Positions 13,712 to 32,549 of a stretch of DNA of 64,000 nucleotides are shown here, piece after piece. Under the pieces are notes generated by a model that saw nothing but the letters and a program-made list of their open reading frames with translations, made no database searches and was not told the origin of the DNA. The translations under genes were made by a program, and so were the position numbers. Every line of letters starts with the position of its first letter. Position 1 is the first letter of the stretch. Source of the DNA: Antarctobacter sediminis (GTDB lineage Bacteria > Pseudomonadota > Alphaproteobacteria > Rhodobacterales > Rhodobacteraceae); contig NZ_JAHUZG010000003.1 of assembly GCF_019218285.1 (NCBI RefSeq), forward strand, positions 434,001-498,000, given 5' to 3'.

Positions 13712-14493
13712 AAGATGCTCCGGTAGGTCCTTGTTTCCGTGGGTCACGAAACAGCTAAAAGGCCCGTCAGGATGAGCCTTCGCTGGACACCCCGACGGGG
13801 CATCCGTGACCGACCCGGCTTCCCTAGAAACTTGTTGAGACGGAAAAGTGTAACTTTTGTAAGAGTTTGATGAACGGACGCAACGGAAGCGATCCTGCCC
13901 GCCTTGTTGCTGGACGCCAGCCCAAGACCGATTTCAGCCCGTCCGGGCCAAGGGCATGCCAAATGGTCTGCCGCGAAAAAAACGATTCTGAATTGGTACT
14001 GACTTGGGAAATTGGTGCCCGGCAACGCGCGCCATTCTTCGCGCGGAAAGCCAAGGGCGTTGAATATACTCTTGTTTCCAAATGATTTTACAAGGACCGC
14101 TGTCAGGCTGCTTTTGCCGATGCTTTGGTCCTTCGCGGCGCGGCCCCCTGTATTCTGACCGGATTGCCCGAGCTTCCGTGGTGCCGTGACACGTCAAGAT
14201 TCGACAATATTGGTCAGCGATCCAGACCATATGCGCGCCTCATTGGCCAGATTGTGTCACCTGACGCCTGACTCAAGGCAAATTTTTTCCGTGAACGGGT
14301 CCATCTGCCTCTGTTGTGGTCATGTTTTCTTAGTCCATTGGAATTCAACCTCTTTCCGCTGAGGTTAGACACGGAGACCGCCAGTGAACGCGCAAATTTC
14401 GCCCAAACGGGGCAAAAATGTTTCCCTTCGGTGAAGGTAATGTTTGATAAGTGACATTTTTTTTGCATCATGACGAGAGTGCCACTCAGCCCA
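13712..14493. other. Long non-coding gap between ugpB and amt1
   Basis: About 780 bp with no credible gene on either strand; the open frames here are short, lack ribosome-binding sites and have no recognisable product. It must hold the ugpB promoter on the minus strand and part of the amt1 control region. AAGGACC at 14092-14098 and GGTCCTT at 14127-14133 form a 7-bp inverted repeat with a 28-nt interior. A run of eight T lies near 14457-14464. No Pho box, sigma-54 promoter or tRNA could be made out. Confidence 0.6.
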
Positions 14494-14530
14494 ATGGGTC
14501 TGAATTGGTCTGAAACACGCTGCCATTGGT
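14494..14530 (+). promoter_or_regulatory. Three in-phase ATTGGT-type boxes upstream of amt1
   Basis: ATGGGT at 14494, ATTGGT at 14504 and ATTGGT at 14525 lie 10 and 21 bp apart, on one face of the helix, and each is followed by TCT. They end about 80 bp before the amt1 ATG. The same box, also spaced by about 10 bp, occurs before tmm and between the glxA-type and XRE regulators. A 10-bp spacing fits the two helix-turn-helix units of an AraC-type regulator; the nearby GlxA-type protein is the first candidate. Confidence 0.5.
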
Positions 14531-14609: not shown

Positions 14610-15977
14610 ATGGACCTAAGTACCATCCACGCCGAACAGGTGACGCTGAATTCACTTGTTCAGAACCTGCTATATGGATCGGGCACCGTTGGCGCGATCC
14701 TCGTTGTCGTCGGCTTGCTGATGATCGACGCGGGCACCGCGCGCCGCAAGAGCCTGTTCAACTCGACAATCGAGAAGACGCTGGGCTTTTTCCTCGGCTT
14801 CGCGACCTACTATTTCATCGGCTTCGGCTTTTGGGCGGCGCAGTATTACATCATGGAAGGCGCAACCATGATGGACAGCGTCAAGGACTGGTGGCTGGGT
14901 GGCGGCCTGACCAATGTTCACGCCCACGCGTTGGATCCCGCGGTTTTCCCCGGTCTGAACACCTTCCAGATCTTTATCTTCTTCCTCGCGGTCTTTGCGG
15001 GCATCATCAACATCCTGTTCCACTTCTCGGTCTCGGAGCGGATGAAACCAGCGGCCTATTATATCGTCTGCGTGGTCGCGGCGGTCGTGTCCTCGATCCT
15101 CAGCTGGGCCACATGGGGCTCGGTCGGGCCGCTGACCAACGCGGGTTTCCATGACTTCTTTGGCGTGGGCTTTGTCTATATGTTCCCGGCGGGCATGGCG
15201 CTGGTCTTTACCCCGATGCTGGGCAAGCGCCCCGGCATGATGGAACCGCACGCCCGCGTGTCGGCCTACCTTGCGCCCAGCATCGGCCTTTGTGCGCCGG
15301 GCCTGTTGATGATCTTTGCCGGCCTGCCGATGGTCATCCTGTCCTGCCTGTTCTTCTTTGATCCCGAGGCACTGGCCGTCAGCGTCACCATGGCGGAAAC
15401 CAGCGTCGGCGTCGCGTTGAACAACTACGCGCTTGTCTGGGCGGGTGGTGCGATCACCGGCCTGATCCTTGCCTACAAGTCGGGCAACTATGCCTACACG
15501 CTGTTGGGTCCGCTTGCCGGTTACGTCGCGGGCGCTTCGGGCTTTGACGTCTACATGCCCTGGCAGGCCTTTATCCTTGGCCTAGTTGCACCTTTTGCGT
15601 CCTACATTGTCTATGAATTCACGCTTAAGCGCGGCATCGACGAGCATAAGCTCTTTCCGCTGTTCATCGGCGCAGGCATCACCGGCATGGTTGCGCTTGG
15701 CATCTTCAAGGCGGGTACGCCGCGCGGTGGCTATCTTGGCATCGAAGAAGGTGCCTATGCGTTCCAGCACGGTGAGATCTCGCTGATCATGCAGCTGGCC
15801 GGGGTTGTGACCTGCCTTGGCACCGGTGTCGTGACCGCGCTGATCCTGTCGGTGATCCTCAAGGCCACTGTTGGCCTGCGGGTGGATGATGACGACCAGA
15901 TCGACGGTCTGGACAAGTACTATTGGGATCTCGAACCCGATGTCGTCACCCACGCGGACAACGTGCCGCGCAGCTAA
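14610..15977 (+). CDS. Divergent Amt-family membrane protein without twin histidines
   Basis: A 455-residue protein with about eleven hydrophobic spans and weak but recognisable Amt/Mep likeness. The conserved pore-side Asp of AmtB (D160) aligns with the Asp in HDFFG near residue 189. The first twin histidine (H168) aligns with Tyr in FVYMFPAG, and the second (H318) falls in FIGAGITG, which has no His. It may conduct or sense something other than ammonium, such as methylated amines. RBS GAGGGAAG precedes the ATG. It stands alone between phased boxes and a strong terminator, and no glnK gene is beside it. Confidence 0.72.
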   Translation: MDLSTIHAEQVTLNSLVQNLLYGSGTVGAILVVVGLLMIDAGTARRKSLFNSTIEKTLGFFLGFATYYFIGFGFWAAQYYIMEGATMMDSVKDWWLGGGLTNVHAHALDPAVFPGLNTFQIFIFFLAVFAGIINILFHFSVSERMKPAAYYIVCVVAAVVSSILSWATWGSVGPLTNAGFHDFFGVGFVYMFPAGMALVFTPMLGKRPGMMEPHARVSAYLAPSIGLCAPGLLMIFAGLPMVILSCLFFFDPEALAVSVTMAETSVGVALNNYALVWAGGAITGLILAYKSGNYAYTLLGPLAGYVAGASGFDVYMPWQAFILGLVAPFASYIVYEFTLKRGIDEHKLFPLFIGAGITGMVALGIFKAGTPRGGYLGIEEGAYAFQHGEISLIMQLAGVVTCLGTGVVTALILSVILKATVGLRVDDDDQIDGLDKYYWDLEPDVVTHADNVPRS

Positions 15978-15996
15978 ACCTGTGACCCAAAGGAAA

Positions 15997-16031
15997 GGCC
16001 CCGGCAGTCACGCCGGGGCCTTTTCATTTTC
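15997..16031 (+). terminator. Rho-independent terminator of amt1
   Basis: A perfect 9-bp GC stem (GGCCCCGGC / GCCGGGGCC) with a 6-nt loop is followed by TTTTCATTTT. It lies 19 bp after the amt1 stop, so amt1 is a single-gene unit. Confidence 0.88.
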
Positions 16032-16102
16032 TTGTCGCTTGAGGTCCAGCAAGCCAATGGAATATCATGGGAAACGCCCTGCCCTTGCCCGGAAAGCCGA
16101 AA

Positions 16103-16822
16103 ATGACCCAGACCAGACGCGCCGACCTGTCGCCCGACCAGAGCATCGGAGAGACCGTGCGCATCGTCGTGGACAAGCTTTTCGTGCGTATCCAGTCGGG
16201 GGAATATCCGCCAGACTCGCGCCTGCCCAGCGAACGCGCGCTTGCCGCCGAACTGGGCGTGTCGCGGAATACCGTGCGCGAGGCGCTCGACGTGCTGGAA
16301 GGCCGTGACATGGTGCGTCGCAGGCAAGGCAGCGGCAGTTTCGTGACCTACCAATCCTACCGATATGAGGCCCCCGTGCCGGGATCGGTCGGAGAACGGA
16401 CCAGCCCGCTGGACCACCTGATCGTCCGATCGATCATCGAACCGGAAATGACCCGGCTGGCGGTGATGAACATGACGCCGAAAGACCTGGAAGGTCTGGC
16501 ACAGGTCGTCGCCCAGATCGAGGCCGTGCGTACCGATCTCAACGAGTTCATCCGCTGTGAGGAAGAATTCTATCGTGCCATCGCGAGGGCAACGCGGAAC
16601 CCGCTGCTCGAAGCCTGTTACGAACTGACGATCGAAGTTTGCCGCCAAAGCTTTCGCACCGCCCTGATGCGCAAACACCTGACGCCCGGCCGCATCCAAA
16701 GCTACCAGACGCGGTTCAATTCGCTGTTCAATGCCATTGCCACCCGCGATGTCGAGGCCGCGGTCGAGATCACCAAACTGCACCTTGTCGAGGAACAAAA
16801 GCTGTTCCTGCACGACGGCTGA
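16103..16822 (+). CDS. GntR-family transcriptional regulator, FCD type
   Basis: A 239-residue regulator with an N-terminal winged helix (RLPSERALAAELGVSRNTVREAL, split by the wing GSGSFV) and an all-helical C-terminal domain of the FCD/FadR group. The metal-binding histidines usual in FCD domains are mostly changed: FY replaces FH and the eH position is R, while the late LH is kept. Its ligand may therefore bind without metal. The ATG at 16103 is chosen for the GGAAAG upstream. It sits tail to tail with the solute-binding-like gene, next to amt1 and tmm, so it probably controls amine genes. The TTGGT-TCA-ACCAA palindrome before tmm suits a GntR operator. Confidence 0.82.
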   Translation: MTQTRRADLSPDQSIGETVRIVVDKLFVRIQSGEYPPDSRLPSERALAAELGVSRNTVREALDVLEGRDMVRRRQGSGSFVTYQSYRYEAPVPGSVGERTSPLDHLIVRSIIEPEMTRLAVMNMTPKDLEGLAQVVAQIEAVRTDLNEFIRCEEEFYRAIARATRNPLLEACYELTIEVCRQSFRTALMRKHLTPGRIQSYQTRFNSLFNAIATRDVEAAVEITKLHLVEEQKLFLHDG

Positions 16823-16826
16823 GGCG

Positions 16827-18062
16827 TCAGTCCACCGCGTCGCGGGTCAAGAGACCCGTGGTTAGCGCGCCGGTTTCAACCCTCTGCTGCCATAGCTGCC
16901 CAAGCGCGCGCATGTGATCGCGCAGCAATTCTTCGTGTTTTTCCAACCAGTCAGGAACCGAGCGGAATTCGGCAATCCGGGCCTTGCCCGACTGGATTCG
17001 CACCACGGGCCAATCTCCGATCAGCGCGTTGTCGATGCCAAAGACATGTTCCCCCCACCAGCGCGCCGGACCAAAGGCGTGAGTCACCGGTTCCATCTGT
17101 TTCATCGTCGTCAGCACCGACACCGGGTGGACCGAGGCGACCTTTTCCACTGCTGCGTGCCAGATTTCCAGAATGGCGACATATTCCCAGCTCACCGCGC
17201 TCCATGATCCGGGGTAGCGCGCATTATATTCCTTGAAGAACTCACTGGGACGATTGAAGAAAAACGCCTTGCGCGCCAGTTTCGGATCGTCGAAATCCGG
17301 GAACTGGAACAGCGTGCCTTCCATGAACTCGGGCGAGGTGCGTTCGACCACGCGCTGATAGTTGTCAAAGGTGCAGGACATGATCCGGCCCTTGAACCCC
17401 TTTTGGTGCGCATATTCCGTCATCGCGTGAACCATCGGCGTATAGCTGGTGCACCAGCAAAGAACATCCGGCTCCGCATCCAGCATCGGCTGCACGATCG
17501 AGGCCACGTCCGTTTGCTCGGGATCGTACTGGATGTCCTTGACCACGGGCAGATCCGCAACTTCGCAAGCTGCGCGATAGGTGGCGGTGGATGGCAGGCC
17601 AAGCGCATCTTTCTGGCTGCACATGGCGATCCGTCGGCGTTCCGGTTCGTTTTCGGCCAGCCAGTCTACGCCGGTCACGTTGAAGACCGGATGCACTTCG
17701 GATGGGGCGATCAGATAGCGGGTATCGGGCGACAGGTCGCTGGGCAGCAGGGTCGAGGTCAGCACCCGGTGCTGGTTCAGAAAGCTGCGCAACGGGGTAA
17801 AGGTATCGCCGCCCAGCATCATCAGCAGTTTGACCTGCTCTGTCAGCACGAGGTGCCGGGCCCCTTCCATCGCGCGTTCTGGATCATAGCCGCAATCGAA
17901 GGGGATGATTCTCAGCGGATAGCGCCGCCCGCCGATCAGAATGCCACCGGCCCGGTTCAGCCAGTCGGCCCATAGCTGGACCCCGTTCAGCCCCGGCAGG
18001 CCCCAGGAACTGACCGGACCACTGAGCGGTGCAAGGAATCCGATGTTGACCGGATCGCTCAT
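16827..18062 (-). CDS. Periplasmic-binding-protein-fold protein, possibly a cytoplasmic ligand sensor
   Basis: A 411-residue protein like the receptors for amides and branched-chain amino acids (type I periplasmic binding fold, opening with NIGFLAPLSGPVSSWG). With the ATG at 18062 there is no signal peptide. A longer start at 18143 has a better ribosome-binding site (AAAGGG) but adds a 27-residue leader without a clear cleavage site. No ABC permease or ATPase genes adjoin. It is transcribed away from tmm. It may be a cytoplasmic sensor of the AmiC kind, or an exported receptor for a transporter encoded elsewhere. Confidence 0.68.
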   Translation of the reverse strand: MSDPVNIGFLAPLSGPVSSWGLPGLNGVQLWADWLNRAGGILIGGRRYPLRIIPFDCGYDPERAMEGARHLVLTEQVKLLMMLGGDTFTPLRSFLNQHRVLTSTLLPSDLSPDTRYLIAPSEVHPVFNVTGVDWLAENEPERRRIAMCSQKDALGLPSTATYRAACEVADLPVVKDIQYDPEQTDVASIVQPMLDAEPDVLCWCTSYTPMVHAMTEYAHQKGFKGRIMSCTFDNYQRVVERTSPEFMEGTLFQFPDFDDPKLARKAFFFNRPSEFFKEYNARYPGSWSAVSWEYVAILEIWHAAVEKVASVHPVSVLTTMKQMEPVTHAFGPARWWGEHVFGIDNALIGDWPVVRIQSGKARIAEFRSVPDWLEKHEELLRDHMRALGQLWQQRVETGALTTGLLTRDAVD

Positions 18063-18213
18063 CCCGACGCGATCGTTGGGAAACAGCGAAGAAACAGCGA
18101 TGCGATGTGCGAAACTGGAGCTGAGCATACCAATTGCTACCATTCGCGCGCCCTTTTTCAAGTCACCATCGTCTTTATCTGCGGGGAAATTTGTTCCCTG
18201 TGATGAAAAATCG

Positions 18214-18242
18214 TTGACAAGGCGGGGACTCAAAGGTGAGAT
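18214..18242 (+). promoter_or_regulatory. Predicted sigma-70 promoter of tmm
   Basis: TTGACA at 18214-18219 and TGAGAT at 18237-18242 are separated by 17 bp, giving a perfect -35 and a fair -10. The start of transcription would fall near 18249, about 46 bp before the tmm ATG. Confidence 0.6.
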
Positions 18243-18269
18243 TTGGTTCAACCAATAAGAACCAATTGG
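18243..18269. promoter_or_regulatory. Operator-like repeats over the tmm transcription start
   Basis: The segment directly downstream of the predicted -10 holds the palindrome TTGGT-TCA-ACCAA (18243-18255). It also holds two AACCAAT boxes exactly 10 bp apart (18250 and 18260), the second continuing into a CCAATTGG palindrome. The first pattern fits a FadR-like GntR dimer, the second an AraC-type protein. The position over the start site suggests repression or roadblock control. Confidence 0.55.
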
Positions 18270-18294
18270 AATCCACCTGACAAGGGAGACAGAC

Positions 18295-19644
18295 ATGAGC
18301 AAGAAACGCGTCGCGATCATCGGGGCTGGACCGTCCGGGCTGGCCCAGCTGCGCGCCTTCCAATCCGCCGCCGCCAAGGGCGAGGAAATCCCCGAGATCG
18401 TCTGCTTTGAAAAGCAGGACAACTGGGGCGGGCTGTGGAACTACACATGGCGCACCGGTCTGGATGAAAATGGCGAACCCGTGCATTGCTCGATGTACCG
18501 TTACCTCTGGTCCAACGGCCCCAAGGAAGGTCTGGAATTCGCCGACTATTCCTTTGAAGAGCATTTCGGCAAACAGATCGCTTCGTATCCGCCCCGCGCT
18601 GTGCTGTTCGATTACATCGAAGGCCGCGTGAAAAAGGCCAATGTCCGCGACTGGATCCGCTTTAACACTGCCGTGCGCTGGATCAACTTTGACGATGCCA
18701 GCGGCAAGTTCACGGTGACCGTGCATGACCACGACAAGGATCACGTCTATTCCGAAGACTTTGATCACGTGATCTGTGCTTCGGGCCACTTCTCGACCCC
18801 GAACGTGCCCTATTACGAAGGCTTCGAGGCCTTCAACGGGCGCCTCGTGCATGCGCATGACTTCCGCGATGCGCGCGAATTCTCGGGCAAGGACATCCTT
18901 GTCGTCGGTTCGTCCTACTCTGCCGAAGACATCGGATCGCAGTGCTGGAAATACGGGGCCAAGACGATCACGTCCTGCTATCGCAGCGCGCCCATGGGCT
19001 TCAAATGGCCGGACAACTGGGAAGAAAAGCCCGCGATGCAAAAGGTCGACGGCAACACCGTCTACTTCTCGGACGGCACCACCAAGGACGTGGATGCCAT
19101 CATCCTGTGCACCGGCTACAAGCACTTCTTCAACTTCCTGCCGGACGACCTGCGCCTGAAGACTGCCAACCGACTGGCCAGCGCGGACCTCTACAAGGGG
19201 GTGGTCTATGCCCACAACCCGCAGATGTTCTACCTTGGCATGCAGGACCAGTGGTTCACCTTCAACATGTTCGACGCGCAGGCCTGGTGGGTCCGCGATG
19301 CGATCATGGGCAAGATCGACATTTCCGGCGTCACCAAGGACCAGATGCTGGCGGATGTGAAAGAACGCGAAGAGCGCGAAGAAGCCAGCGATGACGTGAA
19401 ATACGCGATCCGTTATCAGGCCGACTATATCGAAGAGCTGGTTGCCGAAACGGACTATCCCAGCTTTGACATCGATGGCGCCTGCCAAGCCTTCTACGAA
19501 TGGAAAAAGCACAAGGCCGAAGACATCATGGCCTTCCGCAACAACAGCTACAAGTCCGTGATGACCGGCACCATGGCACCCGTTCACCACACCCCGTGGA
19601 AAGATGCGCTGGACGACAGCATGGAGGCCTATCTGCGGAACTGA
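18295..19644 (+). CDS. tmm: Trimethylamine monooxygenase
   Basis: A 449-residue class B flavin monooxygenase closely resembling Roseobacter Tmm as remembered. It oxidises trimethylamine to trimethylamine N-oxide with NADPH and O2, and related enzymes also turn dimethylsulfide into DMSO. FAD motif [10 protein letters not shown] (residues 10-19), NADPH motif [11 protein letters not shown] near residue 202, the FMO fingerprint [11 protein letters not shown] near residue 178, and CTGYKHFF late in the protein are all present. It has its own promoter and GGGAG ribosome site. The next pathway enzyme, Tdm, is not adjacent as it is in many relatives. Confidence 0.95.
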
Positions 19645-19992: not shown

Positions 19993-20149
19993 TAGAGGGC
20001 GTCCCTGTGTCGGGTTTCGAACCATGCCAACGGCACTTCACGAATATCCGGATTTTCGCAAAATGTCCGATCTGTGCCCGTTTCGGTCTGAATAGGACGG
20101 CGACTCGGACCAGCCTTTGGCCGAAGATGAAACAAAGGAGTCCGAATCT

Positions 20150-21400
20150 ATGCACTACTCAGGGTTCAAGGTCATCAAGGAAGCGCTCACCGGCCATCGC
20201 GGCTGGGGTCCGGCATGGCGCGATGCCACACCGAAAGCGCAATATGACTATGTCATCATCGGCGGCGGCGGTCATGGACTGGCCACAGCCTACTATCTCG
20301 CCAAGGAATTCAAGCAGGCGCGTATCGCGGTGCTGGAAAAGGGCTGGATCGGTGGCGGCAACGTCGGCCGCAACACCACGATCATCCGCTCGAACTACCT
20401 GTTGGACGGCAACGAACCCTTCTACGAGTTCTCGTTGCAACTGTGGGAAGGACTGGAGCAGGAACTGAACTACAACGCGATGGTCAGCCAGCGCGGTATC
20501 CTCAACCTGATCCACACTGACGCACAGCGCGATGCCTTTATCCGTCGCGGCAACGCGATGATCCTGAACGGCGCCGATGCCGAACTGTTGACCACCCAGC
20601 AGATCGTGGCGCGCTATCCGTTCCTGAACGTCGACAACGCCCGCTTCCCGATCAAGGGCGGACTGGCCCAGCATCGCGGCGGCACCGTGCGCCACGATGC
20701 CGTGGCTTGGGGCTATGCGCGCGCCGCCGACAAGCACGGCGTCGACATCATCCAGAATTGCGAGGTCACAGGTTTCCGGATCGAAAATGGCACCTGTACC
20801 GGTGTCGAAACCTCGCGCGGATTCATCGGGGCAGGCAAGGTCGCGGCCTGTGTTGCGGGGTCGTCCTCGCGCCTGATGGAGAAGGCAGGCATGCGGCTTC
20901 CGATTGAAAGCCATGTCCTGCAAGCGTTCGTGTCCGAAGGTCTGAAGCCGCTACTCCCCGGCGTCATCACCTTCGGCGCGGGCCATTTCTATTGCAGCCA
21001 GTCCGACAAGGGCGGCCTTGTCTTTGGCGGCGACATCGACGGCTACAACTCTTACGCACAGCGCGGCAACCTGCCCGTGGTCGAGGACGTCTGCGAAGGC
21101 GGCATGGCGATCTTCCCCAACCTTGGCCGCGCGCGACTGCTGCGTATGTGGGGCGGAATCATGGACATGTCGATGGACGGCTCTCCGATCATCGACCGCA
21201 CCCATATCGACGGGCTCTATTTCAATGGCGGCTGGTGTTACGGCGGCTTCAAGGCCACGCCTGCCTCGGGCTTTGCCTATGCGCATCTGCTGGCCACCGA
21301 CACACCGCACAAGACCGCAACCGCCTATCGCCTTGATCGTTTCGCCACCGGGCACATGATCGACGAAAAGGGCATGGGCAACCAGCCCAACCTGCATTGA
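20150..21400 (+). CDS. mgdA: N-methylglutamate dehydrogenase, beta-like subunit (SoxB type)
   Basis: A 416-residue flavoprotein homologous to the beta subunit of heterotetrameric sarcosine oxidase. It carries the FAD motif IIGGGGHGLATAYY near residues 33-46. TVRHDAVAWG near residue 183 matches the region where SoxB binds FMN through histidine. It forms a complex with the next three gene products and oxidises N-methylglutamate to glutamate, with the methyl carbon passing to THF. The ATG at 20150 follows AAAGGAG with a 9-nt gap. Gene order beta-delta-alpha-gamma is that of both sox and mgd operons; the linked mgs and gmaS genes favour N-methylglutamate over sarcosine. Confidence 0.87.
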   Translation: MHYSGFKVIKEALTGHRGWGPAWRDATPKAQYDYVIIGGGGHGLATAYYLAKEFKQARIAVLEKGWIGGGNVGRNTTIIRSNYLLDGNEPFYEFSLQLWEGLEQELNYNAMVSQRGILNLIHTDAQRDAFIRRGNAMILNGADAELLTTQQIVARYPFLNVDNARFPIKGGLAQHRGGTVRHDAVAWGYARAADKHGVDIIQNCEVTGFRIENGTCTGVETSRGFIGAGKVAACVAGSSSRLMEKAGMRLPIESHVLQAFVSEGLKPLLPGVITFGAGHFYCSQSDKGGLVFGGDIDGYNSYAQRGNLPVVEDVCEGGMAIFPNLGRARLLRMWGGIMDMSMDGSPIIDRTHIDGLYFNGGWCYGGFKATPASGFAYAHLLATDTPHKTATAYRLDRFATGHMIDEKGMGNQPNLH

Positions 21401-21413
21401 GCGAGGACCGGAC

Positions 21414-21701
21414 ATGCTGATCAATCACCCCATCCTCGGCCCCCGCGACGCCGCCGAATTCGTCTACAAGGGCGACGCATCCCTGATCCACCGGCCGGAC
21501 TGGCAAGCCCCTGACGCAGTGGCACAATTCACCGAATACGGATACCTGCGCGACAACCCCGCCGGGCTGCACCGCGAGTTGTGGTTCCACGAACAGGGCG
21601 ACCGGTCCTGGCTGGTCGTGACCCGCGACACCACCACCCATGAAATCACCAAGGTAGAGCTGGCGCGCGATGTGGCGCGGGCCGAGGGGCGTTCCAAATG
21701 A
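21414..21701 (+). CDS. mgdB: N-methylglutamate dehydrogenase, delta-like subunit, zinc ligands lost
   Basis: A 95-residue SoxD-like subunit. In sarcosine oxidase the delta subunit binds zinc through an N-terminal CPxCG motif plus a later His and Cys. Here the first motif reads NHPILGPRD, the later one FHEQGDRSW, and the protein has no cysteine at all, so it cannot bind zinc in the known way. It lies 13 bp after mgdA and overlaps mgdC by four bases. It is most likely a structural clamp between the alpha and beta subunits. Confidence 0.85.
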   Translation: MLINHPILGPRDAAEFVYKGDASLIHRPDWQAPDAVAQFTEYGYLRDNPAGLHRELWFHEQGDRSWLVVTRDTTTHEITKVELARDVARAEGRSK

Positions 21702-24649: not shown

Positions 24650-25202
24650 TCTGAAACCCCTGACCCCGCTTGGTGCCACCGATCCGCGCGTCGACAGCAT
24701 CGGATCGGTGACCCTGACCGAAGTCACCTCTGTTGCGCTGGCCTCTGTCGCCGCGCGGCTGGGCCACGAAGAGGCGGCGCGCAGTGCCTTGGCGGCCTTC
24801 ATCGGTGGCGAGGTTCCTGCCCCGTCGCGCCATGGTGGCGGTGCGCTCAATGCCTTCTGGACCGGCCCCGATCAATGGATGGTCGAGGCCCCGATGGATA
24901 CCCATGAGGACCTGGCGCATCACCTGGCAGAGGTGCTGGGTGCCGATGCCAGCGTCACGGAACAGACCGACGCATGGTGCCGGTTCGATCTTTCGGGCTA
25001 TGAACTGCCGTCGATCATGGAACTGCTCTGCCCGGTCGACCTGCGGTCATGGCAGGGGGGCGAGGTTCAGCGAACCTCGATCGACCACCTTGGCTGTTTC
25101 GTGCTGAACCGCGGCCCGCGCGCCCTGTCGGTGATCGGCCCGCGCAGTTCGGCAGGATCGCTGCACCACGCGCTGATGACGGCCTGCAAGTCGGCCGCCT
25201 GA
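24642..25202 (+). CDS. mgdD: N-methylglutamate dehydrogenase, gamma-like subunit (SoxG type)
   Basis: A 186-residue SoxG-family protein. A GTG start at 24642 inside the mgdC end, preceded by AGAGGGGG, gives MHDLKPLTPLGATDPR, the usual N-terminus; longer frames would duplicate mgdC sequence. The fold is related to the GcvT family and it completes the four-subunit enzyme. It ends six bases before the convergent GlxA-type regulator, with no room for a terminator between them. Confidence 0.86.
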   Translation: MHDLKPLTPLGATDPRVDSIGSVTLTEVTSVALASVAARLGHEEAARSALAAFIGGEVPAPSRHGGGALNAFWTGPDQWMVEAPMDTHEDLAHHLAEVLGADASVTEQTDAWCRFDLSGYELPSIMELLCPVDLRSWQGGEVQRTSIDHLGCFVLNRGPRALSVIGPRSSAGSLHHALMTACKSAA

Positions 25203-25208
25203 CAACAC

Positions 25209-26198
25209 CTATACCGAGGGCACCGGACGGTTGCCCTCGGTCCTGTACAGGTTGATCCGTTTGCGATCCTCCTGCGGGCTCAGCCCGTATTCGGCGCGGT
25301 AATGGCGGGTGAAATGCTTGGCGCTGGCATAGCCCACCGCCGCCGCCACATCCGCCACCGCGTCATTTGTGTACATCACGATCTGACGTGCCGCCTGCAT
25401 TCGCAACCACCGGAAATAGGTGGTCGGGTTCTGCCCGGTGGCCTGCTTGAAACTGCGCTCAAGGTGGCGGGGCGTGATTTCTAGTTGCGCCGCAACTTCG
25501 GCGACAGAGGGCGGGTCGGTCAGGTCGGCGGCAAAAACCTCGATTGCTTTTGATACGATAGGCGACAGGTCGTCCTTGATGCTGCCGGTCAGGTGGACGG
25601 GCACCGATTGCTTGACCCCGATCTTGCGCATCATCGGGTGCTGGAACCAGCAGGCAACCTCGGTCGCGACGTGACCGCCAAGGGCATCGTCGATGAATCC
25701 CAGCGCCAGATCAAAGGCCGCAGCCGCCCCAGAGGCCGTGACGCAACGTCCTGAAACCTCGATGACCTCATCGCTGTAAGAAATTTCCGGGAATTCGGTG
25801 GCGAATGCGGCCTCGTAACACCAGTGAACGGACAGCTTTTCACCCGGGACAGCACCACTTCGGACCAATGGGAACACCCCGCCGCTGATCGCCCCAAGGG
25901 TGCAGCCATGCCGCCCCAAACGGCGCAGATGCGCAGCGCTGCGGGGGTCCGAAAACCGCACTGACGGTGCGGACAGTAACAGCAGGTAATCCACCTCTTC
26001 CACCGTTTCCAACAGGGATTGCGGCTCGAACGGGATGCCCGCACTGGATTGAACCGGCATGGGGGCCTCGGCGATCAAGGTCCATTCAAAGGCTGTGCTG
26101 CGCGAGATTTCATTTGCCGCGCGCAGGGGTTCGATCACCGATGTCAGACACGCCATCGGGAAACCCGGGAACAGAAGGAAGCCGATTGTCTTAGTCAT
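25209..26198 (-). CDS. GlxA-family transcriptional regulator (DJ-1/PfpI-like plus AraC domain)
   Basis: A 329-residue regulator. The N-terminal half (about residues 1-180) is a DJ-1/PfpI amidotransferase-like domain that probably binds a small nitrogenous ligand. The C-terminal 100 residues are an AraC-type pair of helix-turn-helices (PSVAEVAAQLEITPRHLERSF, then VADVAAAVGYASAKHF). The ATG at 26198 is preferred over a TTG nine bases upstream because GGAG sits ten bases before it. This group includes regulators of carnitine, glycine betaine and choline use. It is divergent from the XRE-cupin gene, and phased ATTGGT boxes lie directly upstream. Confidence 0.87.
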   Translation of the reverse strand: MTKTIGFLLFPGFPMACLTSVIEPLRAANEISRSTAFEWTLIAEAPMPVQSSAGIPFEPQSLLETVEEVDYLLLLSAPSVRFSDPRSAAHLRRLGRHGCTLGAISGGVFPLVRSGAVPGEKLSVHWCYEAAFATEFPEISYSDEVIEVSGRCVTASGAAAAFDLALGFIDDALGGHVATEVACWFQHPMMRKIGVKQSVPVHLTGSIKDDLSPIVSKAIEVFAADLTDPPSVAEVAAQLEITPRHLERSFKQATGQNPTTYFRWLRMQAARQIVMYTNDAVADVAAAVGYASAKHFTRHYRAEYGLSPQEDRKRINLYRTEGNRPVPSV

Positions 26199-26201
26199 CT
26201 G

Positions 26202-26238
26202 AACCAATCTCCGCCCAATCCGACCAATTTTTAACCAC
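26202..26238 (-). promoter_or_regulatory. Four phased ATTGGT-type boxes between two regulators
   Basis: On the plus strand AACCAAT (26202), GCCCAAT (26213), GACCAAT (26222) and TAACCAC (26232) follow at 11, 9 and 10 bp. Read on the minus strand these are ATTGGT-type boxes. They lie just upstream of the predicted XRE promoter and within the leader of the glxA-type gene, a place suited to activating one and autoregulating the other. Confidence 0.55.
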
Positions 26239-27027: not shown

Positions 27028-28095
27028 TCATTTCTGAAGCGGCGGTTCGGTTTCAAGATCCGGCCAGACCCCCGGCGACGTCGGCAGGCCATCGTCGAAC
27101 TGGCTGAGATAGTCCAGCATCATCGGACGGTTGGCGATGAACCCTTTATAGGTCGCCAGCTCTTCGGGCAGGTCACGGACAACACGATGCAAACGGCGGC
27201 CCCATTTCGGCACCGATACGATGTCCTGAAAGGCAATCAGGTAACAGCGGATCGGGAACAGCAGCGCGTTTGACCGGGGCAGACGGTAGAAGGTCTGCAA
27301 CTCGACCCGCAGGTGCTGTTTCGAACCGATGTTCTCGGGCGTCAGCGTGGTCTTCTGCACTCCCCATTTGTGATAGTTCTCGGGGCTGGTGTCCAACAGC
27401 GGGTTCACCGTCATTGTCCAGTTCAGCCGCCGCGCCGGGGCACCCTGCTGGACGTTCAGCAGGAATTTCAGCGCGCGCTTGAAAATCCCCATCTCATGGG
27501 CCAGCGGCACAGGCGCGTGCCACTCGAAGAAGTCCATGCCGATATCGAAATCAAGGCTCCAGTCCGCCTGGGTCGTGACCATGCCCGCATCCATGTAGAG
27601 CATGTCGTTGCGCTGATCGAGCACCGCGAAATCGCCCTGCGCCTGCCGCGTGATGTATTCCAGCGGCCCGCAAGGCAGCGTGGTTTCATCGAGGAAGGTA
27701 AAGCTGTGGTCGATCCCCATCGGCTTGTTGATCCAGCGCCAGCGGTCGCCATCACGGTGCAGTTCGAACAGGTCCGGATAATCCTCGGACTTGCTGACCA
27801 TGATCAGTTCCAGCGTGTCCCATCCGGCCAGCGTCATATGCGGCAGCGACTGGCAGCGCAAAGGGTCATCAGCCAGCACAATCGCGCGGTCCCGCATTTC
27901 CGAAACATAATGTTCGTCAACGTCGAACCGTTTTTCATAGACCGACCCGGCCGGTCCGCCCCGATGCTGTTCCATGTTCACCGAGTACATGTAGCTGTCT
28001 TCGTGGAACGGGAACGGGAAGCGTTTGATTGCCCAGTCCGAATTGCGGAACGAGTAATCGTCGCGGAAAGTCTCTTCGTTGAATTGAATCGTCAT
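27028..28095 (-). CDS. dmmC: Dimethylamine monooxygenase, heme-binding DUF3445 subunit
   Basis: A 355-residue protein of the heme-dependent oxidative N-demethylase family (DUF3445). It is the catalytic candidate of dimethylamine monooxygenase, which turns dimethylamine into monomethylamine and formaldehyde with NADPH and O2. It opens with FPFHEDSYMYSVNMEQHRGG, a conserved stretch of the family. It ends the dmmDABC unit, 12 bp after dmmB. Letter names follow the D-A-B-C order described for Ruegeria pomeroyi; the family identification is firmer than the letter. Confidence 0.85.
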   Translation of the reverse strand: MTIQFNEETFRDDYSFRNSDWAIKRFPFPFHEDSYMYSVNMEQHRGGPAGSVYEKRFDVDEHYVSEMRDRAIVLADDPLRCQSLPHMTLAGWDTLELIMVSKSEDYPDLFELHRDGDRWRWINKPMGIDHSFTFLDETTLPCGPLEYITRQAQGDFAVLDQRNDMLYMDAGMVTTQADWSLDFDIGMDFFEWHAPVPLAHEMGIFKRALKFLLNVQQGAPARRLNWTMTVNPLLDTSPENYHKWGVQKTTLTPENIGSKQHLRVELQTFYRLPRSNALLFPIRCYLIAFQDIVSVPKWGRRLHRVVRDLPEELATYKGFIANRPMMLDYLSQFDDGLPTSPGVWPDLETEPPLQK

Positions 28096-28107: not shown

Positions 28108-29094
28108 CTATCGGTCCAGAACCAGCGTCTTGCCGACAAAACGGCTGACGCAGGGCATGATCTTCTTTCCGCTGGCGTGGTCTTCGTCGTCCAGCCAGTG
28201 ATCGCGGTGGACGAACTCGCCATCCGCCTCGACCACATCGGTCTCACATTGGCCGCAGGCGCCGCCCCGACACAGGAAGGGCGCCTCGACGCCACAACGT
28301 TCCATCGCCTCCAGCAGGCTTTCGTGTTCGCCCACCTGAATGGTGATGTCGGATTTGCACAGGCGCACCTCGAAAGGTTTGCCGGGTTGCGGGGCAAGGA
28401 ATTCCTCAGAGTGCACGTTTTCGTCCGGCCAGCCATGGGCCTCGGCGGTCTTGTGCACCCATTGGATCATGCCTTGCGGGCCGCAGACATAGACATGCGT
28501 GCCAAGGGGCTGTCCGTCCAGAAGATCCTCCAGCGCGATGGCCTGTTTCTGGTCATCGTAATAGACATGCACCTTGTTCGGATGGCGCGAGGTCAGCTCG
28601 TCGACATAGGATCCCAACGCCTTGCTGCGGCAGGCATAGTGCAGTTCCCACGCGCCGCCCATGCGTTCCAGATGCGCAATCATCGCCATGAAGGGCGTGA
28701 TGCCGATACCGCCGGCAAGGAAGACATGTTTGCGCCCGCGCAGATCCAGCGGGAACAGGTTCACCGGATAGGTGATTGTCATCGCGTCGCCGACCTTGAC
28801 GTTGCGATGCATGAACACCGATCCGCCCCGGCCTTCGTCATCGCGACGCACCGAGATGGCATAGATCGACTGGTCGGCGGGGTCGGACATCAGCGAATAG
28901 GGGTTCAGGCGGGTGCGGCCGTTGTCGTTCATCTCGACCACGGTATGCGCCCCGGCCGAAAACGGCGGGAAGGGCTTGCCGTCGCGGCGTTTGAACTCGA
29001 ACCGGGTCACAAGCTCGTTCAGCGGCACGATGGCGCTGACTTCGACTTCGATCTTCTCGGCGCCGGCCTTGGCTTTCTGGGGGGCAGCACTCAT
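28108..29094 (-). CDS. dmmB: Dimethylamine monooxygenase reductase subunit
   Basis: A 328-residue phthalate-dioxygenase-reductase type protein. A flavin-binding domain (NPYSLMSDP motif near residue 64) comes first, then an NAD(P) domain (FLAGGIGITPFMAMI near residue 124) and a C-terminal plant-type [2Fe-2S] ferredoxin with CRGGACGQC and a later PCVSR cysteine. It passes electrons from NAD(P)H to the heme subunit. The ATG at 29094 overlaps the dmmA stop by four bases. Confidence 0.88.
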   Translation of the reverse strand: MSAAPQKAKAGAEKIEVEVSAIVPLNELVTRFEFKRRDGKPFPPFSAGAHTVVEMNDNGRTRLNPYSLMSDPADQSIYAISVRRDDEGRGGSVFMHRNVKVGDAMTITYPVNLFPLDLRGRKHVFLAGGIGITPFMAMIAHLERMGGAWELHYACRSKALGSYVDELTSRHPNKVHVYYDDQKQAIALEDLLDGQPLGTHVYVCGPQGMIQWVHKTAEAHGWPDENVHSEEFLAPQPGKPFEVRLCKSDITIQVGEHESLLEAMERCGVEAPFLCRGGACGQCETDVVEADGEFVHRDHWLDDEDHASGKKIMPCVSRFVGKTLVLDR

Positions 29095-29699
29095 TTGTAA
29101 AGCTCCACGGGTTCGGGCACGTTTCCGGGATCCTCGGCGTCGATGCAGACACCCTGGAACGCGGCCAGCCGACGCGAGTAGTGGTCGCGCACAAACAGGT
29201 TCAGCCCGCAATGCGAACAGACGAAGGGATCGGTCATCACGTCCTCGGTGATGCCCTTGCAATGCACGCATTGCATACGGCGCGCCACCGATCCGCGATG
29301 TTCGGTCTGGATCGCGGTATGGGGGATGCCAGCGGTCATCGCCTCGTTCTGCGCCTGCCCCATCAGTCCCTCGGTCCCCGTCAGGTAGACCTGAAGCCCC
29401 ATGTGGGCGTCGGACAACACGCGGCGGATCCGCTGGACCGAAGCCTCGTAACTGGGGCCAACATAGAATTGCGCGGGCTCCAGCGCCTTCAGGCGGTCGA
29501 CATAGGTCTCGCCCGTGGCCTTGGGGATATAGATGATATGCGCGGTGCGGAAAATCTCGGCATCCTGCGCCGCGAGGTCCAAAAGCGCCTCGGCGCCCTC
29601 GGCATCGGCGATCATCAGGTGCGCCTTTCCCGGTCGCGGTTCGAGCGTGCCGTAGACAGGCCGGCTGCGGATGCTTTCGGGGAATTTGAATTTCGACAT
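29091..29699 (-). CDS. dmmA: Dimethylamine monooxygenase small subunit with zinc-ribbon
   Basis: A 202-residue protein that I match to the DmmA-like family. The first 130 residues look like an alpha/beta domain. The C-terminal part has a four-cysteine ribbon (CVHC near residue 143, CSHC near residue 161) that probably binds zinc or iron. Its precise role is unclear, but dmmABC together were enough for dimethylamine oxidation in E. coli in published work on R. pomeroyi. A terminator-like hairpin separates it from dmmD upstream. Confidence 0.8.
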   Translation of the reverse strand: MSKFKFPESIRSRPVYGTLEPRPGKAHLMIADAEGAEALLDLAAQDAEIFRTAHIIYIPKATGETYVDRLKALEPAQFYVGPSYEASVQRIRRVLSDAHMGLQVYLTGTEGLMGQAQNEAMTAGIPHTAIQTEHRGSVARRMQCVHCKGITEDVMTDPFVCSHCGLNLFVRDHYSRRLAAFQGVCIDAEDPGNVPEPVELYK

Positions 29700-29776: not shown

Positions 29777-30922
29777 TCAGCCCTTGGCGGTCCGGATCGA
29801 CTTGTCCTTGTCGTAGAAGGGCATCTCTTCGGCAACGCAGGGGATCTCGGTCCCGTCGGCGTTGCGAACGGTCAACTGGGTGCCCGGAACCGCGCAGTCC
29901 ACCGGCATCCGCGCGATGCCGACCGTGTGGTCGAACAGGTCCGAACGCATCCCGTAGGTCACGACGCCAACCGGCTTGCCGTCCTTGAGCAGTTCCGCAC
30001 CCTCGTCGGCGGCGGTGGTGCCTTCAAGGCGGACACCGTAGATCTTGAACCGCTCTTTGCCTTCCAGAGCATAGTGGTTTTCCGCACCGCGGAAACCTTT
30101 CTTGCCCGGCGACACGGTGAACTCCAGCCCCAGTTCCCACAGCGAATCGCCACAGGGGCCATCGTCGAACGGATAGGTTTCCGAGTTGTCGCCCGGATAG
30201 AACAGCAGGTAGCTTTCGGTCCGCAGCAGGTCGAGGGTCGAGAACTGCACCGGGCGGATGCCCATGTCCTTGCCGTCTTCGAGGATCGCGTCCCACAGCT
30301 CGATGGCGTGGCGACCTTCGCAGAAGATCTCGTAGCCGCGTTCGCCGGTATAGCCGGTGCGCGAGATCATGACCGGTTTGCCGAACAGCTTGGTCTGGAT
30401 GATGCCGAAATAGGCAAGATCACGGATGCCGGGCACGTGCTTGGCAAGGAAGTCCACGGCAACGGGGCCTTGCAGTGACATGTCGTGCAGGTCGTCGTCG
30501 AAGATCATCGAGACGTTCTTGCCGTAGGCTGCCATGGCAAGGCTTTCGTGGCCGGTTCCGGTGCCGTGCACAAGCAGCCAGTTGTTGACCGACAGGCGAT
30601 AGATCACGCAGTCGTCGATGAACAATCCGCGGTCGTCCAGCATCGCGGCATAAACCGCGCGGCCCGGCATCAGCTTGTCGACGTTCCGGGTGGTGGCGCG
30701 ATCAATCACCGCGGCGGCATGCGGCCCGCTGAGGTGGATCTTTTTCAGGCCCGAGACGTCCATGAGGCCCGCCTTGGTGCGCACCGCCTCGTAGTCGGCC
30801 TTGGCGCGTTCGTCGGAGTGGTCATAGAACCACGCCGTCCCCATGCCGTTCCAATCTTCCAGCTCACCGCCGATCTCGGCGTGGCGCTGAGCCAGTGCCG
30901 ACGTTCTGTAGATGATCGCCAT
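29777..30922 (-). CDS. dmmD: GcvT-like aminomethyltransferase DmmD
   Basis: A 381-residue protein of the glycine-cleavage T / folate-binding family, seen in TGYTGERGYEI near residue 205 and LDLLRTESYLLFY. By family it would bind tetrahydrofolate and take up a C1 unit. In R. pomeroyi dmmD was needed for growth on methylated amines but not for the enzyme activity in E. coli, which fits formaldehyde capture; that step is inference. The ATG at 30922 follows GGGAGAG. It lacks the N-terminal DUF1989 domain of TMAO demethylase, so it is not Tdm. Confidence 0.83.
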   Translation of the reverse strand: MAIIYRTSALAQRHAEIGGELEDWNGMGTAWFYDHSDERAKADYEAVRTKAGLMDVSGLKKIHLSGPHAAAVIDRATTRNVDKLMPGRAVYAAMLDDRGLFIDDCVIYRLSVNNWLLVHGTGTGHESLAMAAYGKNVSMIFDDDLHDMSLQGPVAVDFLAKHVPGIRDLAYFGIIQTKLFGKPVMISRTGYTGERGYEIFCEGRHAIELWDAILEDGKDMGIRPVQFSTLDLLRTESYLLFYPGDNSETYPFDDGPCGDSLWELGLEFTVSPGKKGFRGAENHYALEGKERFKIYGVRLEGTTAADEGAELLKDGKPVGVVTYGMRSDLFDHTVGIARMPVDCAVPGTQLTVRNADGTEIPCVAEEMPFYDKDKSIRTAKG

Positions 30923-31071
30923 CGCGTCTCTCCCTGTCATTCGAGGTTGGCGGATATTGAGACCCAAGCGATTTCAAAAATCAATACTTGTGTTCAGATT
31001 TTTTTCCTGCCGGGAAACTTCGCAAATGCGGCCCCGGCGCGTTCGGAAAGCGGGCAAAACCGCAACCGATA

Positions 31072-31175: not shown

Positions 31176-32549
31176 ATGGACGGCAACCTGAACGCCCTGA
31201 CCACGGTGTTCACCGAGTTTTACTACTGGGTGACTGTGGTCTTCATGTTCCTGATTCACGTCGGGTTCTGCATGTATGAAGTCGGTGCAAGCCGCCGACG
31301 CAACCACATGCATACATTGATGAAAAACGTCATGGTGATCCCGCTCGTCACGGTGACGTTCTTCTTCTTCGGTTGGTGGATCTACTGGGCCTTCCCCATG
31401 TTCCCCTTCTTTGGTGGACTCGACCACGACATGGGTTCGGGCAACCTGCCCTGGGCCGAAACCATGGGCCCGAACGCCGCCGACCGAATCACCGGCGTCT
31501 TCTGGGCGGCCTTCCTTTTGTTCTCCTGGACGGCGGCCTCGATCGTGTCCGGCGCTGTGATCGAACGCATCCGCTCTTCGGCGCTTTGGGTACACGCGGT
31601 GCTGATCGGGTCGGTCTGGTGGATCATCGATGCCGCATGGGGCTGGCACTATGACGGTTGGATGGTGAAATACCTTGGCTACCACGATGCCTATGCATCG
31701 GGGGTGATCCACGCGATTGCCGGTGGCTATGCCCTTGGGGTCATCGCGGTGCTTGGCCCGCGTATCGGCAAGTTCGCGGCCGATGGCACCCCGCGGGACA
31801 TCCCCCCGCATAACCCGTGGATGCTGACCATCGGCATCTTCCTCATCTACACCGGCTTCTGGGGTTTCTACGCCGCCTGCAACGTGCCCGCCATTTCGCC
31901 CGAGGCCATTGGCGGCCAGATCACCGGCACCACATGGACGGCCACCAACATCTATCTGGCACCGACGTCGCTGTCGGGGATCACCTTCAACTTCCTGATG
32001 TCGCTCTCGGGCGGGTTGATGGCGGCCTATGTCGTGTCCAAGGGCGATGCCTTCTGGACCTTCTCCGGCGGTCTGGCCGGTGTCATCACCGCCTCTGCGG
32101 GCAATGACCTGTATCACCCGGTGCAAGCGATGCTGATCGCCGCCGTCGGCGTGGTCATCGTCTACCGCCTGCACTTCTGGGTAGAACGCCGGTTCAAGCT
32201 TGACGATGCGGTGGGCGCGGTCGCCGTGCACGGTTACGCCGGTTTCGTCGGCCTCGTCATCGCGGGCTTTGTCCTCTGGGGGGCGCCTTCGTCACCGTAT
32301 GAAGGATATGCCACGATCAACCCGGTGGGTCAGATCACCGGCGCGCTGATCATGTTCTTTGGTCTTGGCTTTGTGCCGGCCTTCGTGGTGTCCAAAATTC
32401 AGGCAGCCATGGGCGTTCTGCGGATCCCCGAGGAGGTCGAGCTTGAAGGTCTCGATTACGCTGAACACCATGCCTACGAAGAAGCCAAGGAGGCCATCAT
32501 CGAGGCCGACAAGGCGCATCTGGCCACCAAACTCACCCCCGCGGAATAA
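31176..32549 (+). CDS. Amt-family transporter with twin histidines, methylamine-cluster type
   Basis: A 457-residue membrane protein with about eleven spans. Both pore histidines are kept: VIHAIAG (AmtB H168) and AVHGYAG (AmtB H318). The Asp equivalent to D160 is in HDAYASG. The N-terminus is unlike ordinary AmtB (GASRRRNHMH instead of the usual loop). A charged C-terminal tail (EEVELEGLDYAEHH) follows. Amt proteins conduct methylammonium as well as ammonium, and the position before mgsABC-gmaS makes methylamine uptake likely. A 72-residue membrane protein follows after 12 bp; no glnK is present. Confidence 0.82.
   Translation: MDGNLNALTTVFTEFYYWVTVVFMFLIHVGFCMYEVGASRRRNHMHTLMKNVMVIPLVTVTFFFFGWWIYWAFPMFPFFGGLDHDMGSGNLPWAETMGPNAADRITGVFWAAFLLFSWTAASIVSGAVIERIRSSALWVHAVLIGSVWWIIDAAWGWHYDGWMVKYLGYHDAYASGVIHAIAGGYALGVIAVLGPRIGKFAADGTPRDIPPHNPWMLTIGIFLIYTGFWGFYAACNVPAISPEAIGGQITGTTWTATNIYLAPTSLSGITFNFLMSLSGGLMAAYVVSKGDAFWTFSGGLAGVITASAGNDLYHPVQAMLIAAVGVVIVYRLHFWVERRFKLDDAVGAVAVHGYAGFVGLVIAGFVLWGAPSSPYEGYATINPVGQITGALIMFFGLGFVPAFVVSKIQAAMGVLRIPEEVELEGLDYAEHHAYEEAKEAIIEADKAHLATKLTPAE

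Follow-up and report, generated by a model that had tools for sequence, protein, structure and literature searches.

An Amt-fold protein without the twin pore histidines in a methylamine island of Antarctobacter sediminis, a candidate carrier of methylated amines

In PMC10433425 the twin-histidine pair figures as the motif that characterises the Amt superfamily, and according to PMC7447429 its natural variation is confined to a glutamate replacing the first histidine in some fungal Meps. According to excerpts of the mutational literature on E. coli AmtB, the H168A/H318A double variant lost transport of both methylamine and ammonia in vivo (PMC3647058) and bound NH4+ in vitro without passing it (PMC7447429), single-histidine variants were channel-like for hydrated NH4+ (PMC7447429), loss of a single histidine stopped the transport of methylamine and not that of ammonia, because this hydrophobic amine becomes trapped at the changed site (PMC3647058), and the substitutions F215A/H/E/S/W abolished transport altogether (PMC10433425). 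Methylammonium and dimethylammonium are named as alternative substrates of assimilatory, histidine-bearing Amts in a figure legend of PMC5764959, an excerpt of which also describes the sensor Amt Ks-Amt5 with a pore blocked by bulky residues. On the side of the methylated amines, MttP and TmaT are the two proteins named in PMC11708041 as implicated in the transport of trimethylamine (TMA), while TmoR is described as a repressor of tmm in R. pomeroyi that appears to be responsive to dimethylamine (DMA) (PMC13390433, excerpt). According to PMC7574528, clusters for TMA, DMA and monomethylamine (MMA) recurrently contain genes labelled 'amt', alongside an ABC binding protein and a regulator of the fadR type, and an amtB is labelled in a cluster figure legend of PMC5520151; both the 'amt' and the amtB may be of either of the two types distinguished below as AMT2 and AMTX. 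No Amt without both histidines appears in the excerpts of PMC10433425, PMC9040831, PMC10794816 and PMC4543880, and among the matches listed in a search of literature titles, mostly non-subscription, none dealt with such an Amt or with an Amt-type TMA/DMA carrier.

The window, i.e. the whole analysed stretch of 64,000 nucleotides from A. sediminis, contains a methylamine island with the following genes:

14610..15977, + strand: AMTX (P0001), Amt-fold protein in which Tyr190 and Phe352 stand for the twin histidines and Val242 for the phenylalanine of the inner gate; 455 amino acids, ATG start, intact open reading frame
16067..16822, + strand: tmoR-like GntR/FCD regulator (PF00392, PF07729), tentatively so named for its family and its position
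16827..18182, - strand: Peripla_BP_6 (AmiC-like) protein between tmoR and tmm; start unsettled, the reading frame extending to 18422
18295..19644, + strand: tmm, trimethylamine monooxygenase (NF058570, 834 bits against a cut-off of 675 bits)
25209..26207, - strand: AraC/GlxA-like regulator, probably TmaR, named from family and place (PMC13390433, excerpt)
27028..28095, - strand: dmm component, haem-dependent oxidative N-demethylase alpha-like (PF11927), the dmm marker of the survey
28108..29090 (limits approximate), - strand: dmm component, NAD-binding/2Fe-2S reductase (PF22290, PF00111, PF00175)
29091..29699, - strand: DmmA-like protein (PF22290, PF22289)
29777..30967, - strand: GcvT-like aminomethyltransferase of the dmm cluster (PF01571, PF08669)
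31176..32549, + strand: AMT2 (P0002), second Amt of the island, with both histidines and the inner gate phenylalanine kept

Genes resembling soxB, soxA and soxG at 20117-25202, of which the gene at 20117 scored above the TIGR01373 cut-off, probably encode subunits of N-methylglutamate dehydrogenase, which belongs to the MMA branch. The AmiC-like protein (16827-18422), which could be an amine sensor, apparently corresponds to the 'gene of unknown function' in the excerpt of PMC13390433. A scan of the defence library gave no match.

Comparison with Pfam revealed a full-length match of AMTX to PF00909 (Ammonium_transp; residues 30-437 on profile positions 11-392 of 399, E 2.3e-34, 119 bits against a curated cut-off of 23.2), which was the single Pfam family found at E<=1; at this threshold the 455 residues matched neither the BCCT family of TmaT nor any fused signalling domain. 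AMTX missed the cut-off of the NCBI amt subfamily TIGR00836 (122 against 343 bits), AMT2 fell below it too (180 bits), and the genome of the window encodes four PF00909 proteins. An AlphaFold2 monomer model, built from a 32-row alignment, contains 11 helices of at least 14 residues (mean pLDDT 73.8, pTM 0.80), and the PDB entries matching it best were those of A. fulgidus Amt-1 and E. coli AmtB together with Shewanella Amt1 (E values from 4e-13 to 1e-12, rmsd 3.6-5.9), with TM-scores by query length of 0.69-0.72 against 2b2f, 2ns1 and 8qpf. The 'Sensor Amt Protein' entry 6eu6 and Sd-Amt1 were also among the best fold matches. Sd-Amt1 carries a fused signalling domain. Both Sd-Amt1 and Ks-Amt5 share with AMTX an Amt fold with an altered pore; Ks-Amt5 combines a fused signalling domain with kept twin histidines (PMC5764959, excerpt), whereas AMTX has neither. 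With E. coli AmtB and A. fulgidus Amt-1, to which it is 20-22% identical in structural and profile alignments, AMTX has in common PF00909, the 11-helix fold, the W/F/F/D outer site and a C-terminal VGLRV...GLD tail, but it differs from them in the twin histidines (Tyr and Phe), in the inner gate phenylalanine (Val) and in the replacement of W212 and S263. TmaT, a BCCT protein and Na+ symporter with aromatic boxes, and MttP would share with AMTX its proposed substrate TMA, while their families are unrelated to it. Taken together, the fold matches and sequence scores place AMTX, as modelled, among the Amts by fold and mark it as a remote member by sequence.

The preliminary description, relying on a hand alignment to AmtB, had stated that both pore histidines are lost from AMTX, with a tyrosine at the H168 position, no histidine in the H318 region and the aspartate of D160 retained, and that the second Amt of the island keeps both. 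All of this was borne out. In three alignments, namely a phmmer alignment to A. fulgidus Amt-1 (read off the printed alignment), a MAFFT alignment of 99 sequences including E. coli K-12 AmtB, and an hhalign profile-profile alignment of AMTX against a profile of 12 other Amts, H168 of AmtB corresponds to Tyr190 and H318 to Phe352; AMT2 retains both histidines in the MAFFT alignment. Of 114 Amt open reading frames detected, identical or contained ones were dropped, which gave the MAFFT alignment its 99 rows, among them three references. Tyrosine and phenylalanine occupy positions 168 and 318 in 55/55 distinct AMTX sequences, that of the window included, and both histidines are present in 44/44 other Amts of the same alignment, a set consisting of AmtB, P0002 and the Amts from fetched loci rather than a census of the superfamily. 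Both substitutions were found in 48 of the 49 named loci described below, the 49th (L095) ending at a contig edge. Because of this strict division between Tyr/Phe and His/His, the loss of the twin histidines is, on the aligned sequences, neither chance nor decay.

Further pore positions are altered that the preliminary description had not listed, namely those of F215, W212, S263 and S219. The inner gate phenylalanine F215 corresponds to Val242 (V in 53/55, I in 2/55), W212 to Leu239 (L in 55/55) and S263 to Leu299 (L in 51 and F in 4 of 55), and S219 is replaced by cysteine in 55/55 AMTX sequences, as it is in 25/25 AMT2-type sequences. The outer cation site is kept throughout, with W148 as W169, F107 as F129 and D160 as D182 (55/55), and F103 is kept as F125; the Phe gate F107/F215 thus retains F129, has lost its inner phenylalanine and is incomplete. 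Read at AmtB positions 103, 107, 148, 160, 168, 212, 215, 219, 263 and 318, the pore signature of AMTX is FFWDYLVCLF (55/55 if V/I and L/F swaps are allowed for). Among the 44 non-AMTX sequences, canonical Amts read FFWDHWFS(S/N/T)H and the histidine-bearing island Amts (P0002 and kin) AFWDHFFCSH. Eleven columns separate AMTX near-absolutely from the others (28, 32, 47, 114, 116, 117, 168, 215, 310, 313 and 318), of which 168, 215 and 318 are pore-lining, as are 28 and 114, which we take to line the pore in AmtB. The replacing residues are nearly invariant across sequences down to 69% identity, as judged from the alignments, one of which covers 30 of the 49 named loci and the two Amts of the window.

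A histidine at a shifted position would have offered another explanation of the altered motif, and none was found at the pore midpoint in the three alignments: the invariant histidines of AMTX (H138, H181, H214 and H346) align elsewhere, in columns holding serine in 41/44 other Amts (H138), histidine in 28/44 (H181) or histidine in 0/44 (H214 and H346). His138 (window 15021-15023), present in 55/55 AMTX sequences, lies two residues past the place of AmtB L114 in TM3 and is followed by Phe139 in 54/55, where 44/44 other Amts have glycine. AMTX is thus a member of the Amt superfamily that fails the functional hallmarks of this superfamily, and the label 'ammonium transporter', if taken from the Pfam match alone, would mislead for the whole clade.

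Among 390 genomes of the order of the window, AMTX was detected in 14 (E<=1e-30), tmm above its own cut-off in 72, the dmm marker (27028-28095, E<=1e-60) in 74, and tmm and dmm together in 63. All 14 AMTX genomes belong to these 63, and AMTX occurs in none of the remaining 327; its association with tmm is significant both by genomes (p 1.8e-11) and by genera (p 2.3e-6), since tmm occurs in 36 of 139 genera and all nine AMTX genera are among these. The proposed link to TMA/DMA metabolism is therefore strongly supported, and AMTX is not equally common in genomes without methylamine genes, a distribution that would have spoken against it. Since AMTX is missing from 49 of the 63 genomes that combine tmm with dmm, the protein is not required. 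The two enzymes are inseparable as partners of AMTX because they co-occur in 63 of 72 and of 74 genomes, and although AMTX is absent from the nine genomes with tmm alone and the 11 with dmm alone, neither result reaches significance (p 0.13 and 0.08, respectively), so that TMA and DMA are not separated as cargo. A nearer sample of 61 genomes contained six with AMTX at >=72% identity, all among the 11 with tmm, and within the genus of the window G000 and G003-G005 carry AMTX and tmm while G001 and G002 carry neither. In a class-level scan of 289 genomes with an AMTX profile (E<=1e-12), no AMTX was found outside the order; apart from the genome of the window, it matched two AMT2-type proteins, which have both histidines.

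A pattern scan of 84,980 species genomes yielded at least 49 named AMTX loci of 69-96% identity, a lower bound because two peptide patterns were used, in Mameliella, Leisingera, Ruegeria, Roseovarius, Shimia, Pararhodobacter, Paracoccus, Szabonella and other taxa. In 32/49 the fetched flank contains one or more methylamine genes, be it tmm, tmoR, tdm, dmm or another. The preliminary description had placed AMTX beside the tmm regulators, which holds for part of the loci: 19/49 have the window's own order AMTX - tmoR - AmiC-like (opposite strand) - tmm, which is the commonest, whereas AMTX adjoins gcvT/dmm genes or lies one gene away from them in L067, L075, L082, L083, L085 and L089, and 17/49 loci have no methylamine gene in view (11 Leisingera, four Roseovarius and two from other taxa, one on a short and one on a truncated contig). 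All 17 genomes with such an unlinked AMTX hold tmm elsewhere, 16 above the cut-off and one split across two contigs. In Paracoccus, AMTX follows tmm and tdm, often with one further gene between, tdm being cluster c0 as assigned from DUF1989 and GCV_T in the L052 copy. In L106, L113, L083 and L085 an amino-acid permease (AA_permease_2; Pfam on the L113 copy) separates the gcvT-dmm genes from AMTX or AMT2b. Locus L096, titled Enemella evansiae TN21-6 (Actinomycetota), carries an AMTX-tmoR-AmiC-tmm arrangement 85-92% identical to that of the window, and this assembly is probably mislabelled or contaminated.

The histidine-bearing island Amts (31176-32549 and relatives in L097-L114) fall into two types, AMT2 and AMT2b, which are about 43% identical to each other, both have A103, F212 and C219 for the canonical F, W and S, and are 24-30% identical to AMTX. 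They share with AMTX the same islands, the cysteine at S219 and a histidine at L159, but unlike AMTX they keep H168, H318 and F215 (25/25 rows). With classes assigned by identity to one AMT2b query and at most four candidates scored per genome, AMT2 was found in 33/390 and AMT2b in 43/390 genomes, nearly mutually exclusively (both in three); AMTX is present in seven of the former and four of the latter, and in three genomes with neither found (G151, G241 and G313). A mutual replacement of AMTX and AMT2b in the slot beside tmm/dmm was considered and rejected, as 11 of the 14 AMTX genomes also hold AMT2 or AMT2b, which indicates that AMTX adds a role and replaces none. In a quick tree of 76 of the 99 rows (32 of 55 AMTX and all 44 others; SH-aLRT only), AMTX forms one clade (SH-aLRT 100) on a long stem of 6.64 changes per column and joins AMT2/AMT2b apart from the canonical Amts (SH-aLRT 98), a placement that is not firm in view of the long branch. 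AMTX is maintained by purifying selection, as dN/dS was 0.04-0.14 in five comparisons, although those with L006 and L094 agree in their values and appear to stem from a single genome.

Ordinary ammonium transport by AMTX appears improbable by analogy, because the AmtB F215 and H168A/H318A variants fail and AMTX is changed at all three positions, its Val, Tyr and Phe being residues other than those of the AmtB variants compared in the excerpted sources. AMTX would instead probably handle methylated amines. We lean slightly towards a membrane protein of the Amt fold with a pore remodelled to let a larger and more hydrophobic amine, TMA and/or DMA, into the cell for the Tmm/Tdm/Dmm pathway; it is the best reading because the outer cation site is kept, the bulk of the inner gate is lost, the lining has become hydrophobic and aromatic, and the company of TMA/DMA enzymes is strict. 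The outer aromatic cage and aspartate would still recruit the protonated alkylammonium, valine at the F215 place and leucine at the W212 place would leave the inner gate wide enough for methyl groups, and a lumen lined by Tyr190, Phe352 and leucine may pass the neutral amine or an aromatic-caged cation with no histidine proton relay. The wider proposal is an even bet: the AMTX clade would comprise Amt-fold carriers of secondary and tertiary amines without twin histidines, inner Phe gate and proton relay, i.e. a first Amt-type DMA/TMA importer and the missing TMA/DMA entry route in part of Rhodobacterales. As a conserved, selected clade with both histidines replaced, AMTX represents a natural experiment on substrate choice in the Amt pore as well as a concrete candidate for methylated-amine entry into bacteria, and both questions are directly testable with one gene.

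Several points weigh against a carrier of TMA/DMA. Neutral TMA and DMA can diffuse. With phenylalanine for histidine, the lower pore could become narrower instead of wider. Removal of the histidines alone does not favour methylated amines, because single-histidine AmtB loses methylamine before ammonia (PMC3647058, excerpt), and it is unnecessary for DMA, as dimethylammonium is a named substrate of histidine-bearing Amts (PMC5764959, figure legend). By analogy, the pore chemistry would equally suit a non-conducting receptor, since AmtB H168A/H318A binds NH4+ without passing it (PMC7447429, excerpt). Such an amine receptor, binding alkylammonium at the outer site and relaying a signal to nitrogen or methylamine regulation, either by its C-terminal tail or through a partner, is the foremost alternative and in our estimate unlikely. 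Sensor Amts do exist, as exemplified by Ks-Amt5 with its pore blocked by bulky residues (PMC5764959, excerpt), Sd-Amt1 is among the top fold matches, and AMTX stands beside tmoR and the AmiC-like binding protein in 19/49 loci; yet AMTX has no fused signalling domain (one Pfam family at E<=1 in 455 residues), Ks-Amt5 itself keeps the twin histidines, and TmoR appears to respond to DMA/TMAO on its own (PMC13390433, excerpt). The six loci near gcvT/dmm and the 17/49 with neither methylamine gene nor regulator in view argue somewhat against a dedicated tmoR-coupled sensor, and on the sequence evidence AMTX is more likely a carrier than a sensor.

Less probable still, and in our view doubtful, would be an unselective ammonium/MMA channel without a proton relay, for example one venting the ammonium or MMA that demethylation produces. 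The pathway does release both, the outer cation site is retained, and single-histidine AmtB variants are channel-like for hydrated NH4+, but the double-histidine variant does not transport (both PMC7447429, excerpt) and changes of F215, a valine in AMTX, abolish AmtB transport (PMC10433425, excerpt). Moreover, 11 of the 14 AMTX genomes already hold an Amt of the AMT2 or AMT2b class, and AMTX tracks tmm together with dmm, being absent from the 11 dmm-only and nine tmm-only genomes, which are too few for significance. A degenerate or structural Amt that has lost its own pore function, for instance as a subunit in mixed trimers with AMT2, could account for the long stem, the loss of several catalytic residues and the AMT2/AMT2b-class partner in 11/14 genomes, but is highly improbable given the near invariance of the replacing residues down to 69% identity, the low dN/dS and the three of 14 AMTX genomes in which neither AMT2 nor AMT2b was found.

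AMTX had further been credited with its own control region and terminator. Candidate control elements in the window are as follows:

14444..14471, + strand: sigma-70-like match TTGATA-16-CATCAT
14497..14509, + strand: GGTCTGAATTGGT box (AATTGGT-type), candidate TmoR half-site upstream of AMTX
15992..16025, + strand: intrinsic terminator between AMTX and tmoR, strong hairpin with T-run
18243..18255, + strand: candidate operator of TmoR, the palindrome TTGGTTCAACCAA within the tmm promoter

The terminator is supported by RNA folding of 15978-16066 (-38.9 kcal/mol, z -4.4, 0/200 shuffles as low), while the control region stands less firmly, as sigma-70-like matches in the region are not above chance (three found, 1.6 expected); by eye, many AMTX orthologues have a similar sequence at a comparable upstream position. 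The promoter-like match and the strong terminator indicate that AMTX is probably its own transcription unit.

The search for TmoR sites covered 20 tmoR-linked AMTX promoters (those of 19 loci plus that of the window) as well as 14 unlinked ones, the rest of the 49 loci being left out. A palindromic operator upstream of AMTX was rejected: the palindrome of the tmm promoter, found as TTGGT-N1to5-ACCAA in 9/20 tmm promoters of tmoR-linked loci, is absent there in most loci, and the AATTGGT-type box recurs instead. A direct-repeat arrangement of half-sites showed no single spacing when 23 promoters not linked to tmoR were compared. These motifs make it plausible that TmoR controls both AMTX and tmm, and in tmoR-linked genomes TmoR would then repress AMTX together with tmm; co-regulation is a hint, because shared descent of the promoters may explain the boxes and the unlinked promoters also exceed the shuffles slightly in half-sites. 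TTGGT/ACCAA half-sites number 49 in the 20 tmoR-linked promoters (shuffle mean 9.8, maximum 20 in 500) and, with a smaller excess, 16 in the 14 unlinked ones (shuffle mean 6.4, maximum 15), and the GGTCTGAATTGGT box occurs with up to two mismatches in 16/20 of the former and 0/14 of the latter.
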